From Trueperaceae bacterium (lineage in GTDB: Bacteria; Deinococcota; Deinococci; Deinococcales; Trueperaceae): a stretch of DNA of 64,000 nt. Both the position numbers and the translations under genes were made by a program. Below the pieces are notes generated by a model. The model did no database searches, was not told the origin of the DNA, and saw only the letters and a program-made list of their open reading frames with translations. This document shows positions 53,781 through 62,954 of the stretch, piece after piece (the first letter of the stretch is position 1; each line of letters opens with the position of its first letter). The stretch covers positions 31,305-95,304 of the forward strand of contig DASVDQ010000014.1 in the NCBI GenBank assembly GCA_036381035.1. The letters are read 5' to 3'.

Positions 53781-56700
53781 GTGCGGATCGCCTCCCTGAC
53801 ACTGCAGGGCTTCAAGAGCTTCGGGGACCGCACCACCATCGAGTTCTCCCCGGGCGTCACGGCCATCGTCGGCCCCAACGGCTCCGGCAAGTCGAACATC
53901 ATCGACGCCCTGCGCTGGACGACCGGCGGCGGCAGGGCTTCCGCCTTCAGGGCCGAGGACAAGACCGACCTGATCTTCCACGGGGCCAGCGGCAAGCGCT
54001 CCGTGAGCCTCGCCGAGGTCGAGGTCGAGCTCGTCGGCCCGCGCGGCGGCGTGAAGGTGTGGCGCAGCCTCGACCGCGACGGCAACACGCGCCTGCGCCT
54101 CAACGGCAGGAACGCGCGGTTCCTCGACGTCGAGGAGGCGCTGGCCGGCTCGGGCCTCGGCCGCTCGGGCCTGGCCGTCATCGGCCAGGGCGAGGTCAGC
54201 CAGGTGCTCATGGCCGACCCCGAGCGGCTGCTCGCCTACGTCTCGGAGGCGGCCGGCGCCGCCCGCCTCGCCACCCGCCGCGACCAGGCCGCCGAGCGGC
54301 TGGCGGCCGCCGACAGGCACCTCGAGAGGCTGCAGGAGCTGCTCGCGAGCCTACAGGAGCGCGAGCGGGTGCTGACCGAGGAGGCCGAGGGCGCGCGCCG
54401 TCACGCCGCGCTCACGGCCGAGGCGCTGCGGCTGCGCTACACGGCAGCGGTGCTGCGCCGCGACGCCCTCCTGGCCGAGCTGGCGGCCCTCGACAGGCGG
54501 CGCGGCGAGGACGAGCAGCGCCTGGCCGAGGGACGCGCCGCCCTGGCCCAGCTCCGCAGCGCGCTCGATGCCGCCAGGCGCGACCACGAGCGGGCGCAGG
54601 AGCGGCTGCGCGCCGCCGCCGCGGACCTCGAGGCGCGGCGCGGCGACGTGCGCGTGGCCGAGGAGCGCGTGGCCGGGCTCAGGGCCAAGGTGGCGGGCCT
54701 CGAGAGGCGCGAGGCCGACCTGCGCGCCGAGTCGGGGCGCCTGGAGGCCGTGACGGCCCCCGCGGCGCCGGACGACACCGTCGAGGCCGCCGACGCGCGC
54801 CTCGCCGCGCTGGTCGCGGCCGCGCGGGAGGCCGCGTCCCGCCACGCCGGCGCCCGCGACGCGGAGGCCGCCGCGTCAGCCGTCCTCGAGGCGGCCCGCC
54901 AGCGGGAGTCGGCACGGCAGCGCGACGCCGCGGCCCGCGGGGCGCGCCTGGCCTCCCTGGCCGAGCAGGAGGCCGAGCTGGCCGCGCGCCTGCGGCGCGC
55001 CGAGGCCGCCGTGGGCGGACGCGAGCTGGCCGCCCTGGAGGCCGCCGCCGAGGCGGCGCGCTCCGCCAGGGACGCCGCGAACGCGGCCCTCGAGCGCGCC
55101 AGGCAGGAGCTGGCCGAGGTGCACGAGCGGCAGGCCCTGGCCGCGGCCGAGGCGATGTCGACGAGGCGGGCCGCCGAGAGGCTGCGCGCCGCCTTCGAGG
55201 CACGCCGCGGCTACGCCCAGGGACCGCGCGCCGCGCTCTCCTCGGGGATCCCGGGCGTGGTCGGCTCGGTGGCCGACCTGCTGCGGGTCGCGCCGGAGCA
55301 CCAGGCCGCGATAGGCGCCGCGCTCGGGCGACGCGCCGAGTACGTGGTCGTGGACACGGCCGCGACCGGCGAGCGCGTGATCGAGCACGTGAAGAGGGCC
55401 GGCGGCTACGTGACCGTGCTGCCCCTCGACCTGATCAGGTCCAGCGCTGCGACGGTCCCGGCCTCCGTGCTGGCCAAGGAAGGCGTGGTGGGTCTCGCCA
55501 CCGGCCTCGTCGCGGTCGACCCCGCCTACGCCGGCGTGCGCGACATGCTCCTCGCCGGCACCGTCGTGACCCGCGACCTGCGCACGGCCACCGCGATCGC
55601 CCGCGCCGAGCGCCACCGCCCCCGGTGCGTGACCCTCGAGGGCGAGGTCCTCGAGGCCTCCGGGGCGATGAGCGGCGGCCGGCGCTCGCAGCAGCAGGGG
55701 AGCGTGCTGGGCCTGGCCGCCGACCTCGAGGACGCCGAGGCCGCGGCCGAGGCGGCGCGGCGCGCCGCGGAGGAGGCCATGGCGGACCTGGAGGCCGCCA
55801 GGCAGACCGTTCGGTCTCGTCAGGAGGAGGCACGCGTCGCCGCGGAGGGGGCCGAGCGCGCCGAGGCCGCAGCCGCCAGGGCGCGGGAGGAGCGCGCCGC
55901 CGCCACACGCCTCGTAGAGGAGCTGACCGAGCGCCTGACGGCGACCCGCACGGCGCTGGCCGCGGCCAGGAGCGAGGCGGCGCGCGAGGAGCCGGACGCA
56001 GAGGCCGACGCCGCCGACCTCGAAGCGGTGCGCGCCGCCTTCGAGGCCGCCCGCGCCGGGCTGGAGGAGGCGCGACGCGCGCACGCGGAGGCCGAGGCGG
56101 CGGTGGCGGGCGCGCGCCACGAGCGCGAGCTCCTGGCCGAGCGCTGGGCGGCGCACGCCGCGGCCCTCGAGCGCCTCCGGCGCGCCAGGGCGAGGCAGGA
56201 GGAGATCGCCGCCGAGCTGGACGTCGTCGCGCGCGAGCGCGAGGCGACGCGCGCGGACCTGGCGCGCGCCGCGGCGCGCCTCGAGGAGGCCACCGCGAGC
56301 CTGCCCGCCGGCGTGGAGGAGGAGGAGCGGGAGGTCGTGCGCGCCCGCGGCGTCGTCATCGAGCTCGAGGAGGAGCTGGGCCGCCGCACCGAGGAGCAGG
56401 CCCGGATCGCCCAGGCGATCGAGGAGGCGAAGGTGCAGTCGGCGCGGCGCGAGACCGCGCTCGAGCTGGTGAACGAGGAGCTCGAGGACTTCCCGCCCGG
56501 CGTGGCCAAGCTGGAGCTCTCGGAGCGCGCCGCCAGGCAGCGGCTGCGCGAGGTCACCGACGCGCTCGAGGCCCTGGGCGCCGTGAACCACCGCGCCGCC
56601 GGCGAGCTCGAGGAGGTGAGGGCCAGGCGCGAGTCGCTCGAGGTCGAGGCCGTGCAGGCGACCCTCGCCGTGGCCGAGCTGCAGTCAGCCCTGGAGCGCA

Positions 56701-57233
56701 TCGACCGCGAGACCAGCGACCTGGTCGACGCCGCCCTGCAGCGCCTGAGGTCGTCGTTCGGGCGGCACGTCCAGCACCTCTTCGGGCCGGACGCCCGCGG
56801 GGCGATCGAGGTCGACACCGACGGGCGCCGACCGACCGGCGTGAAGATCCGTCTCACGCCGCCCGGCAAGCAGACGCAGTCGCTCCACCTGCTCTCTGTG
56901 GGCGAGCGGACCATGGGGGCACTGGCGTTCCTCTTCGCGCTCATGGGGGACGGCTCCACGGGCCTGCCTGTGGCGGTGCTCGACGAGGTTGACGCGCCCC
57001 TCGACGAGGCCAACATCCGCCGCTTCGCCACGTTCCTCACGCGGCTGGCGCGGCACGGCACGCAGTTCATCCTCATCACCCACCAGAAGGCGACGTTCGA
57101 GGTCGCCGACGCGCTGTGGGGCGTCACGACCGAGCGCGGCGTGAGCCGCGTCTTCAGCGTCAGGCGCGCCGACGACCCGCCGCAGGACCAGCGCCCGGGC
57201 GTCGGCGGGCGTCCGGCCGTCGCCGCCGACTGA
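53781..57233 (+). CDS. smc: Chromosome segregation protein SMC
   Basis: The protein is 1150 residues. The N-terminal ATPase lobe has Walker A GPNGSGKSN at 31-39. Long Ala/Glu/Arg-rich coiled coils flank a hinge at about 490-640 (GIPGVVGSVADLLRVAPEHQ, AERHRPRCVTLEGEVLEASG). The C-terminal lobe has the ABC signature LHLLSVGERTMGALAFLFAL and Walker B LPVAVLDEVDAPLDEANIRR. SMC with ScpAB loads at origins and compacts the chromosome. The signature reads LSVGE, not LSGGE. No scpA or scpB lies nearby. The gene is followed eight bases later by birA. Confidence 0.96.
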   Translation: MRIASLTLQGFKSFGDRTTIEFSPGVTAIVGPNGSGKSNIIDALRWTTGGGRASAFRAEDKTDLIFHGASGKRSVSLAEVEVELVGPRGGVKVWRSLDRDGNTRLRLNGRNARFLDVEEALAGSGLGRSGLAVIGQGEVSQVLMADPERLLAYVSEAAGAARLATRRDQAAERLAAADRHLERLQELLASLQERERVLTEEAEGARRHAALTAEALRLRYTAAVLRRDALLAELAALDRRRGEDEQRLAEGRAALAQLRSALDAARRDHERAQERLRAAAADLEARRGDVRVAEERVAGLRAKVAGLERREADLRAESGRLEAVTAPAAPDDTVEAADARLAALVAAAREAASRHAGARDAEAAASAVLEAARQRESARQRDAAARGARLASLAEQEAELAARLRRAEAAVGGRELAALEAAAEAARSARDAANAALERARQELAEVHERQALAAAEAMSTRRAAERLRAAFEARRGYAQGPRAALSSGIPGVVGSVADLLRVAPEHQAAIGAALGRRAEYVVVDTAATGERVIEHVKRAGGYVTVLPLDLIRSSAATVPASVLAKEGVVGLATGLVAVDPAYAGVRDMLLAGTVVTRDLRTATAIARAERHRPRCVTLEGEVLEASGAMSGGRRSQQQGSVLGLAADLEDAEAAAEAARRAAEEAMADLEAARQTVRSRQEEARVAAEGAERAEAAAARAREERAAATRLVEELTERLTATRTALAAARSEAAREEPDAEADAADLEAVRAAFEAARAGLEEARRAHAEAEAAVAGARHERELLAERWAAHAAALERLRRARARQEEIAAELDVVAREREATRADLARAAARLEEATASLPAGVEEEEREVVRARGVVIELEEELGRRTEEQARIAQAIEEAKVQSARRETALELVNEELEDFPPGVAKLELSERAARQRLREVTDALEALGAVNHRAAGELEEVRARRESLEVEAVQATLAVAELQSALERIDRETSDLVDAALQRLRSSFGRHVQHLFGPDARGAIEVDTDGRRPTGVKIRLTPPGKQTQSLHLLSVGERTMGALAFLFALMGDGSTGLPVAVLDEVDAPLDEANIRRFATFLTRLARHGTQFILITHQKATFEVADALWGVTTERGVSRVFSVRRADDPPQDQRPGVGGRPAVAAD

Positions 57234-61262: not shown

Positions 61263-62261
61263 TCACCAGTCCTCGATGTCGTCGCCGATCGCCTCGGCGT
61301 CGATCTTCGCGTAGATGCGAGTCGTCTGGATGTCGGCGTGGCGCAGGTGCGCGGCGACCCGGCCGAGGTCCTTCGTCTGGCGGTAGTAGCGCGTGCCCGC
61401 GCCGTGCCTGAGCCCGTGCACGCCGGCCGTCCCGTAGTCGACGCCGGCGCGCGCGCACAGGCGCCTGAAGCGCCGCCTGGCGTGGTCGGCGGTCCAGGGC
61501 AGCACGTAGGCCTGGTCGCGCTGGCGCTTCTCGCCGGCGCGGTAGTCGGGGTCGGCGGAGAGCTCGCTCAGCGCCTCGCGCAGGCGCCTGGTCATGCGCA
61601 CCGTCGCCGCCTTGCCGCCCTTGCCGGAGCGCACGCGCAGCGTGCTCGTGCCCATGTCGACGTCGTCCCACCTGAGGTCGGCCATCTCGCCGATGCGCAG
61701 CCCGCCGTGCGCGCCCAGGAGCACCATCACCCGCTCCGCGCCGGCCGCATGCCCGAGCAGCGCCTCGACCTCGCCGTCGCGGTACGGCCGGCGCTTCTCC
61801 CACGGCGGCGTCGGGTCCTTGGCGACGCGCACGTCGTCGAACGGCCGCGCCTCGGTCGCCCCGGCCCACCTGAGCGCCTTGTACAGCGTCCTGGCCGCCG
61901 CCAGCTTCACGTTCAGCGTCGCCGGCGACGGCGGCTCGCCGCCCGTCAGCGCTCCGGCCTCGAGGCGCCGCACGTAGACGACGCCGGCGTCGCGCGCCGG
62001 CCGCAGCAGGTTCTCGCCGGCCCAGGCCGCCAGCAGGTCGGCGACGCCGCGGCGGTAGGTGCGCAGCGTGTGCCGGCTGACCCGCGCGCCCTTGGCGCCG
62101 TGCAGGAAGAGGTAGGCTTCGGTGAGCGCCCAGAGCTCCTCGGCGTGGCGCTCGTTCGCGGCCTTGGCCGCGCGGCGCCTCAGCTCGTCGGGCGGCAGGC
62201 CCGCCCAGGTCTCGGCACGCGCCAGCGCGGAGCCGTCGTAGGGGGTGATCTCGGCGGCCAT
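61263..62261 (-). CDS. Tyrosine recombinase of the Xer/integrase family
   Basis: The protein is 332 residues. A SAM-like core-binding domain (about 35-150, ALTEAYLFLHGAKGARVSRH) precedes the catalytic domain with all expected residues: Arg189 in LLGAHGGLRIGEMADLRW, a lysine in RSGKGGKAAT, His282 and Arg285 in VHGLRHGAGT, His308 in HLRHADIQTTRIY and nucleophile Tyr317. It could be the cell's dimer-resolving recombinase or an element integrase. It has GC-rich codons like the host genes. The ATG lies seven bases after a TAAGCT box, and a dif-like palindrome begins 17 bases upstream. Confidence 0.92.
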   Translation of the reverse strand: MAAEITPYDGSALARAETWAGLPPDELRRRAAKAANERHAEELWALTEAYLFLHGAKGARVSRHTLRTYRRGVADLLAAWAGENLLRPARDAGVVYVRRLEAGALTGGEPPSPATLNVKLAAARTLYKALRWAGATEARPFDDVRVAKDPTPPWEKRRPYRDGEVEALLGHAAGAERVMVLLGAHGGLRIGEMADLRWDDVDMGTSTLRVRSGKGGKAATVRMTRRLREALSELSADPDYRAGEKRQRDQAYVLPWTADHARRRFRRLCARAGVDYGTAGVHGLRHGAGTRYYRQTKDLGRVAAHLRHADIQTTRIYAKIDAEAIGDDIEDW

Positions 62262-62268
62262 GCCGGCC

Positions 62269-62274
62269 AGCTTA
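62269..62274 (-). promoter_or_regulatory. -10 element of the tyrosine recombinase gene
   Basis: Minus-strand TAAGCT ends seven bases before the ATG at 62261, just left of the dif-like site. Confidence 0.5.
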
Positions 62275-62277
62275 CAC

Positions 62278-62305
62278 AGGTCTGATAAGACTAGTTATCA
62301 GGCTT
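62278..62305. other. dif-like recombination site
   Basis: This 28-base site has two 11-base arms around a 6-base centre (GACTAG). The inner seven bases of each arm are perfect complements (CTGATAA and TTATCAG); over the full arms nine of 11 positions pair. Xer sites of other bacteria share the 11-6-11 layout and the inner ATAA/TTAT core. It sits 17 bases upstream of the recombinase gene and exactly at a drop in GC content. Whether it is the chromosomal dif, an attachment site or an operator cannot be told from this window. Confidence 0.55.
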
Positions 62306-62393
62306 TTCACATGCGCCCTTCGTGACGGATCCCGACCTTTGGTTCCTACTGTGCCCGTAGGTTCGATGAGAGATCGTGGACCGGGGGAACACC

Positions 62394-62954
62394 ATGACAA
62401 CGAGGCAAGTACTAGGGATCGGCGGTTCGCTGGTTCTCGTAGTCGGCGTCTTCGCGCCGATCGTCAGCGTCCCGATCGTTGGAGACCTTAACTCCTTCCA
62501 GAACGGTCGGGGCGACGGCACCATCGTCCTAGTCCTGGCACTCATATCGCTGTTGCTTGTAATGCGCGGACTCTACAGGGGTCTTTGGGTCACGGGCATC
62601 TTGAGTGCCGCTACTCTGACCATCTTGTTCCTGAACGTTCTAGATGGCATAGGTGACGTGCGGGCACACTTGGAGCGTGAACTCGCTGGAAACCCGTTCC
62701 GCGGGCTTGCCGACGTAGCCATGCAGTCTGTCCAGATCCAGTGGGGCTGGGCGTTGTTGGTAGTCGGGACTCTTGGACTACTTGCCGCTGCGGGCACCCG
62801 CGATGGGGACTCGATCGGAGACCTGGAACAGCTCGATGTGCTCACATGCTTGTCGGTGGTTGCCAGGGGGCAACAACTGGCCCGGGCAGCGAGCGAGTTC
62901 GCGCCGGACTCCAGTGACGGCGGCGCTGCAGACAGCCGAAGTCATGCTCAGTAA
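62394..62954 (+). CDS. Four-helix membrane protein in lower-GC DNA
   Basis: The protein is 186 residues from the ATG at 62394, after GGGGGAAC. Four hydrophobic segments are seen: VLGIGGSLVLVVGVFAPIVS, TIVLVLALISLLLVMRGLY, LWVTGILSAATLTILFLNVL and WGWALLVVGTLGLLAAAG. The tail is acidic and polar. Codon use differs from nearly all other genes here (CTA, TTG, CTT, GTA, ATA occur often), indicating recent acquisition. No family is recognised. An in-frame GTG at 62376 would add six residues. Confidence 0.75.
   Translation: MTTRQVLGIGGSLVLVVGVFAPIVSVPIVGDLNSFQNGRGDGTIVLVLALISLLLVMRGLYRGLWVTGILSAATLTILFLNVLDGIGDVRAHLERELAGNPFRGLADVAMQSVQIQWGWALLVVGTLGLLAAAGTRDGDSIGDLEQLDVLTCLSVVARGQQLARAASEFAPDSSDGGAADSRSHAQ

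Follow-up and report, generated by a model that had tools for sequence, protein, structure and literature searches.

A conserved dif-like palindrome beside an Xer-type recombinase gene in Trueperaceae, probably a one-enzyme system for chromosome dimer resolution

Xer systems that work with a single recombinase are already known as a kind (XerS/difSL, XerH/difH and XerL), and the locus described here lies in a 64,000-nucleotide stretch of Trueperaceae DNA that was analyzed as a whole (the window). As portrayed in passages of two papers (PMC5357621, PMC2731167), the XerH/difH system of Helicobacter and Campylobacter likewise has one recombinase gene linked to a site near the terminus. The window's enzyme, however, appears to belong to a different recombinase lineage: its match to the XerH structure 5jjv (93 bits) is confined to the C-terminal half, at positions 156-324, and ranks after those to XerA and XerD. 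In addition, the arms here are closely symmetric, the site lies in a putative promoter region and the system is known from its sequence. In the XerS/difSL system of streptococci and lactococci the gene is immediately adjacent to the site, as it is here; difSL is described in part of PMC5357621 as 31 bp with an 11-bp center, whereas the present site has 28 bp and a 6-bp center, and the window protein scores 53.0 bits against the NCBIfam XerS model (cut-off 267). XerL of the Legionellales, a system that had escaped notice until recently, also combines a single recombinase with a strongly palindromic site near the terminus; in the account of PMC9765430, as far as its passages go, the genes flanking that dif vary and no linkage to xerL is reported, whereas gene and site are adjacent here. 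Archaeal XerA/dif again has one Xer enzyme and a 28-base site in the terminus region (passages of PMC5357621), but the window protein reaches only 76.9 bits against the archaeal XerA model (cut-off 220), and FtsK with a gamma domain (FtsK_gamma) was found in all 11 genomes tested. The XerCD/dif system agrees with ours in the 28-base site, the 6-base center, the skew-switch position and the FtsK gamma domain; it differs in that here one gene is linked to a near-symmetric site. The window protein falls below the XerC and XerD models as well (78.5 bits, cut-off 335, and 53.8 bits, cut-off 330), and an XerD equivalog above cut-off was found in 0 of 10 genomes, at a strict cut-off that only four of 14 controls passed.

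In the phylum itself dimer resolution has not been pinned down, to go by passages of two Deinococcus radiodurans papers: a 2026 study in which the dif site was not confidently identified (PMC13342612) and an FtsK study in which six recombinases are listed as candidates, with their part at putative dif sites deferred to future work (PMC9764985). The main text of a broad dif prediction (PMC3025954) contains no Deinococcus, Thermus, Truepera or Meiothermus. A search of the open-licence literature found no paper on a Truepera tyrosine recombinase or on XerS or XerH in Deinococcus-Thermus, which is weak evidence that such a system is undescribed for this lineage. Here we present a concrete gene and a 28-base site (Table 1). 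We read them, with a probability of roughly 0.8, as a single-recombinase Xer/dif module that is likely the lineage's chromosome dimer resolution system and whose dif lies inside the promoter region of its own gene. Counterparts occur in the cultivated Truepera radiovictrix, Meiothermus and Calidithermus, so that the question is directly testable.

Table 1. Coordinates of the module and of related or neighboring features (window positions unless a genome and contig are named).
Feature	Position	Strand	Basis or remark
Xer-type tyrosine recombinase gene (group A), 332 aa	61263..62261	-	PF00589 + PF02899; catalytic residues in alignment
Putative -10 box TAAGCT (predicted)	62269..62274	-	same geometry in 15/28 picked loci
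dif-like 28-base dyad, two 11-base arms, 6-base center GACTAG (62289-62294)	62278..62305	.	sequence and conserved place beside orthologues
Perfectly palindromic part, CTGATAA-N6-TTATCAG	62282..62301	.	exact pattern search
smc (context only, not part of the module)	53781..57233	+	SMC_N and SMC_hinge; ~4 kb from recombinase gene
AAA_14/DUF4143 protein beside the site, runs off contig end	62993-64000	-	domain match
Group B paralogues / palindromes	G000:C99:102232-103251, 106108-106959; G019:C15:167705-167726; G036:C67:3880-3901		

The plus strand reads AGGTCTGATAA-GACTAG-TTATCAGGCTT at the site. The dyad with 11-base arms around a 6-base center, as proposed in the first-pass annotation, can thus be read directly: nine of the 11 arm pairs match and the inner seven (CTGATAA/TTATCAG) are perfect. 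It is close to the recombinase start, again as proposed, with 16 bases between it and the start codon (62259-62261, minus strand). For the 14 fixed bases, the number of exact copies expected in the 3.43-Mb genome is ~0.0001 from base composition and 0.00002 from a first-order Markov model; a genome search for further copies, suggested in the same annotation, returned two exact matches, the window's site and a second copy with a different center at C45:1638-1657, and besides these one place at two mismatches. Taken by itself, the palindromicity of the site is modest: 300 first-order Markov resamplings of the upstream region gave P = 0.02, and an equally good score was reached by 9 of 53 background windows, so the case for the site rests on its conserved sequence and place. 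A chance palindrome or a transcription terminator would agree with that moderate score; the conservation of arms and place across genera and the expected copy number of ~0.0001 make this explanation extremely unlikely. The dif-like site is real and conserved.

The adjacent gene encodes a Phage_integrase protein with a SAM-like N-terminal domain. All the catalytic residues of an Xer-type enzyme are there, as the first-pass annotation had it: in an alignment with 20 relatives, R189, K214, H282, R285 and Y317 are invariant and H308 is nearly so. Among solved structures, the best profile matches are an XerC-like archaeal enzyme (4a8e), XerA, XerD, IntI4 and XerH. The description of the recombinase as "lone" was wrong, since the window's genome (G000) holds four Phage_integrase proteins, two of them on contig C99 and 46-47% identical to the window's; further tyrosine recombinase matches turned up in all 11 genomes examined. 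In a quick tree of 55 rows, the window's group (A) and the paralogous group B have SH-aLRT values of 93 and 100, respectively. Relatives of the recombinase are present in 95 of 101 genomes, a count that includes paralogues and weak Thermus matches. Nearly all members of genus g20 (genomes of 2.0-2.4 Mb) give weak matches only (E about 1e-5 to 1e-9), and the module may therefore be missing there.

Absence of the site next to orthologous genes had been named in the first-pass annotation as evidence against it; it is instead present beside orthologues in seven other Trueperaceae genomes. The exact TGATAA-N6-TTATCA pattern is found directly upstream of the orthologue in five of them (G014, G006, G036, G029 and G019), and G025 and G016 carry the site at the same place with one change among the 12 arm bases. 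Across the eight loci including the window, column identity is 98% at the 12 arm positions and 88% in the center, compared with 46% at 31-80 bases upstream and 62-64% after the site; the eight loci are not independent because G036, G029 and G019 are close relatives. The exact pattern occurs in 27 of 61 genomes searched, and part of these occurrences are group B sites. The matches in G001, G007, G009 and G017 are taken to be chance, and in three of these four genomes there are also control matches or a large number of hits.

In other families of the order, orthologues at 32-48% identity often have a palindrome of their own in the corresponding position, built from different arms, as with GGTGATGATAA-ATCCCC-TTATCATCACC in G079, ATTCCCGTTAA-GGGAAA-TTAACGGGAAT in G040 and ATGCGCACTTA-TTTTCC-TAAGTGCGCAT in G100. 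The pattern CACTTA-N6-TAAGTG occurs once in each of four of the 10 Thermaceae genomes searched, always beside the gene, and is absent from the other six. We scored palindromes at 48 loci by 300 first-order Markov resamplings each; the set comprised 34 of the 39 loci from one search (the last five, partial or distant, were left out), the window, 12 chosen loci and T. radiovictrix. At 30 of the 48 loci the palindrome had P <= 0.05, and four of these (L244, L256, L268, L074) are held to be unrelated palindromes. The 18 loci above 0.05 include five that carry the Trueperaceae core (L236, L237, L238, L242, L071) and L245 (P = 0.08); the remaining 12 showed no convincing dyad in the resampling test. 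Generic palindrome scoring misses the five core-bearing loci because their outer arms are unpaired, and exact-arm searches were applied to them. The arms thus vary between clades with palindromy retained, and arms that change by genus, with gene and palindrome staying together, offer a natural series for the co-evolution of an Xer enzyme and its site. At two loci from Planctomycetota metagenome-assembled genomes (L245, L247), a group A-like gene has a GATAA-N6-TTATC dyad at its start; transfer, a binning error or a wider range are possible readings.

Next to conservation, the position of the site on the chromosome was examined. The expectation in the first-pass annotation that the site should lie at the GC-skew switch was borne out in three relatives (G006, G019, G016) and not in T. 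radiovictrix (G012), where the palindrome, at about 1,630.8 kb, is 30-50 kb away from a skew turn located at 1,580-1,600 kb. In the single contig of G006 the site is at 1,309.8 kb, and the maximum of the cumulative skew, computed over 1,280-1,374 kb, falls at 1,310 kb; at greater distances the samples are noisy, and positive and negative values occur on both arms. In G019 (contig C2, 217 kb) the peak is at 80 kb and the site at 79.2 kb, with a second rise beyond 168 kb. Sampled skew in G016 is positive over 2,354-2,569 kb and negative over 2,570-2,720 kb, and the site, at 2,558.8 kb, falls at this turn within the resolution of the sampling; the gene of this genome (a scaffold with N gaps) is only 0.251 of the circle from dnaA, and a paralogue lies at 0.490, yet no skew turn was found there. 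The gene-to-dnaA distance is 0.500 of the circle in G012 and G048, 0.507 in G006, 0.513 in G058, 0.530 in G040 and 0.632 in G099. In G058 the skew left of the site is +0.030 and that to its right -0.004; the local maximum is found 31 kb beyond the site. Of the 16 bins of 4 kb in the window, 11 have positive skew and the one containing the site is negative; the window (G000:C14:31305-95304) reaches to the end of its contig, which breaks off 1.7 kb after the site. KOPS polarity was tried as an additional sign of dif and set aside: GGGNAGGG changes its polarity on passing the site in G006, G019 and G058 (P = 0.0053, 0.00061 and 0.014), and on the window's left side it runs the opposite way (5 against 9); the motif ranks only sixth among 56 patterns of the same composition and hence does not discriminate.

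The region between the dyad and the gene has a recurrent layout. In the window, 7 bases separate the TAAGCT box from the start codon, and the box is 16 bases away from the dyad center. Among 28 picked loci, 19 have TANNNT downstream of the dyad followed after 5-7 bases by ATG or GTG (47 of 1496 background windows do), and in 15 the box starts 16-18 bases from the dyad center; nine, including G006 and T. radiovictrix, have no such box. These loci were chosen for a visible palindrome, and the numbers therefore describe a geometry and not a frequency. As judged from this spacing, the -35 region of a putative leaderless promoter would fall within the dyad, and a recombinase bound there would consequently repress its own gene. 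The constant spacing of dyad and putative -10 box, present at 15 of the 28 loci, would also arise if the palindrome were an operator only, for the recombinase or for another regulator, with the recombination site elsewhere. We consider this unlikely given the skew-switch position in three relatives, the copy in G000 away from any such gene, and the group B sites of the same build that lie 2.5-3 kb from their genes in G019, G036, G025, G010 and G030. The two roles, operator and recombination site, can coexist, and a site placed over the promoter would couple the enzyme level to dimer resolution.

The smc gene adjoins the recombinase gene in G006 too (55.6% identical), and the neighborhood with smc is common to several Trueperaceae. 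In Bacillus subtilis, XerD unloads SMC at dif, as recounted in a passage of PMC13342612. Between the site and the AAA_14/DUF4143 gene lies an ORF (62391-62954) for which no Pfam match was found. The first-pass annotation had offered an element that uses Xer recombination as an alternative to a one-enzyme dimer system, and the conserved smc neighborhood makes that alternative fit the locus less well. More broadly, gene and site could be an integrase with its attachment site, belonging to a mobile element or plasmid-derived module that has no housekeeping role, as the relatives on plasmid records (discussed below) and the additional site copy located in DNA that resembles a phage or plasmid might suggest. 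We regard this as very unlikely: the smc neighborhood is shared by several genera, relatives of the gene occur in nearly all genomes even if that count takes in paralogues and weak Thermus matches, the site lies at the skew switch in three relatives, and the stretches around the gene in G014, G006, G036, G029 and G019 hold a single site. An element flanked by two dif-like sites, the IMEX hallmark, was accordingly not found on these five stretches.

The second copy (L066:1639-1656 for the core) has GCCTGATAA-N6-TTATCAG in common with the window's site. It sits among short mobile-element-like ORFs in the first 3.7 kb of contig C45, one of which looks helix-turn-helix-like; the rest of the contig is chromosomal (Lon protease, proline dehydrogenase). 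A mobile element that relies on the host recombinase could use this copy to resolve its dimers. A short repeated motif around GTATC-GCGGATACAG, seen by eye at about 2.8-3.2 kb of L066, possibly represents iterons of the element. Insertion in a tRNA gene was considered and dropped, since ARAGORN found none in L066, and L300, the one viral relative of the element, has no site at up to two arm mismatches. A search of viral contigs with a 16-base pattern gave 62 stretches, which we judged (without a control) not far from chance.

Taken with the position beside orthologues and at the skew switch in three relatives, the one-enzyme reading put forward in the first-pass annotation gains support. In the module as we propose it, one recombinase protomer would bind each arm, two sites on a chromosome dimer would synapse at the division septum, FtsK, through its gamma domain, would activate the recombinase, and strands would be exchanged at the edges of the 6-base center, splitting the dimer; bound over the -35 region, the recombinase would act as a repressor of its own gene as well. 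For this enzyme we thus predict binding, recombination and self-repression, and that one enzyme may suffice is suggested by the linkage of gene and site and by the symmetric arms.

Relatives of the recombinase are encoded on 71 plasmid records, 67 of them from Deinococcus, and in one strain, QL22, several replicons each carry one. We surveyed 23 of the 71 records for dyads (22 Deinococcus and one Oceanithermus; L363-L385), six of them from QL22. A strong dyad, with no fewer than 9 of 11 pairs, a center of 5-8 bases and a position overlapping the start or at most 18 bases from it, is present in six of the 23: D. aetherius p1 with 11/11, the QL22 201-kb replicon and the Oceanithermus plasmid with 10/11, and the QL22 669-kb replicon, AJ005 p17k and D. 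grandis p3 with 9/11 (P = 0.067 for the last). Three more records have weaker dyads, and in 14, including D. radiodurans chromosome II, no dyad was found at the start. As support for replicon-specific modules these results are mixed. It is possible, and we put it forward only tentatively, that in Deinococcota the chromosomes and megaplasmids each have a self-regulating one-enzyme Xer/dif module of their own, with a private, co-evolved dif in the promoter of the gene. If so, each enzyme would resolve its own replicon only and sense its own abundance at the site, and dimers would be resolved without replicon fusion in these multi-replicon, radiation-resistant bacteria.

Group B has a site of its own, TTTGATAA-N6-TTATCAAA, at the distance from its gene given above for five genomes and farther away elsewhere. 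The B gene of G000 itself has no such site at up to two mismatches. Group B was also considered as the main chromosomal system, and in G019:C15 the skew maximum falls 8 kb past the B site, close to where the contig ends. Genomes of genus g16 have two or three group B-type sites with different centers, as if for two replicons.
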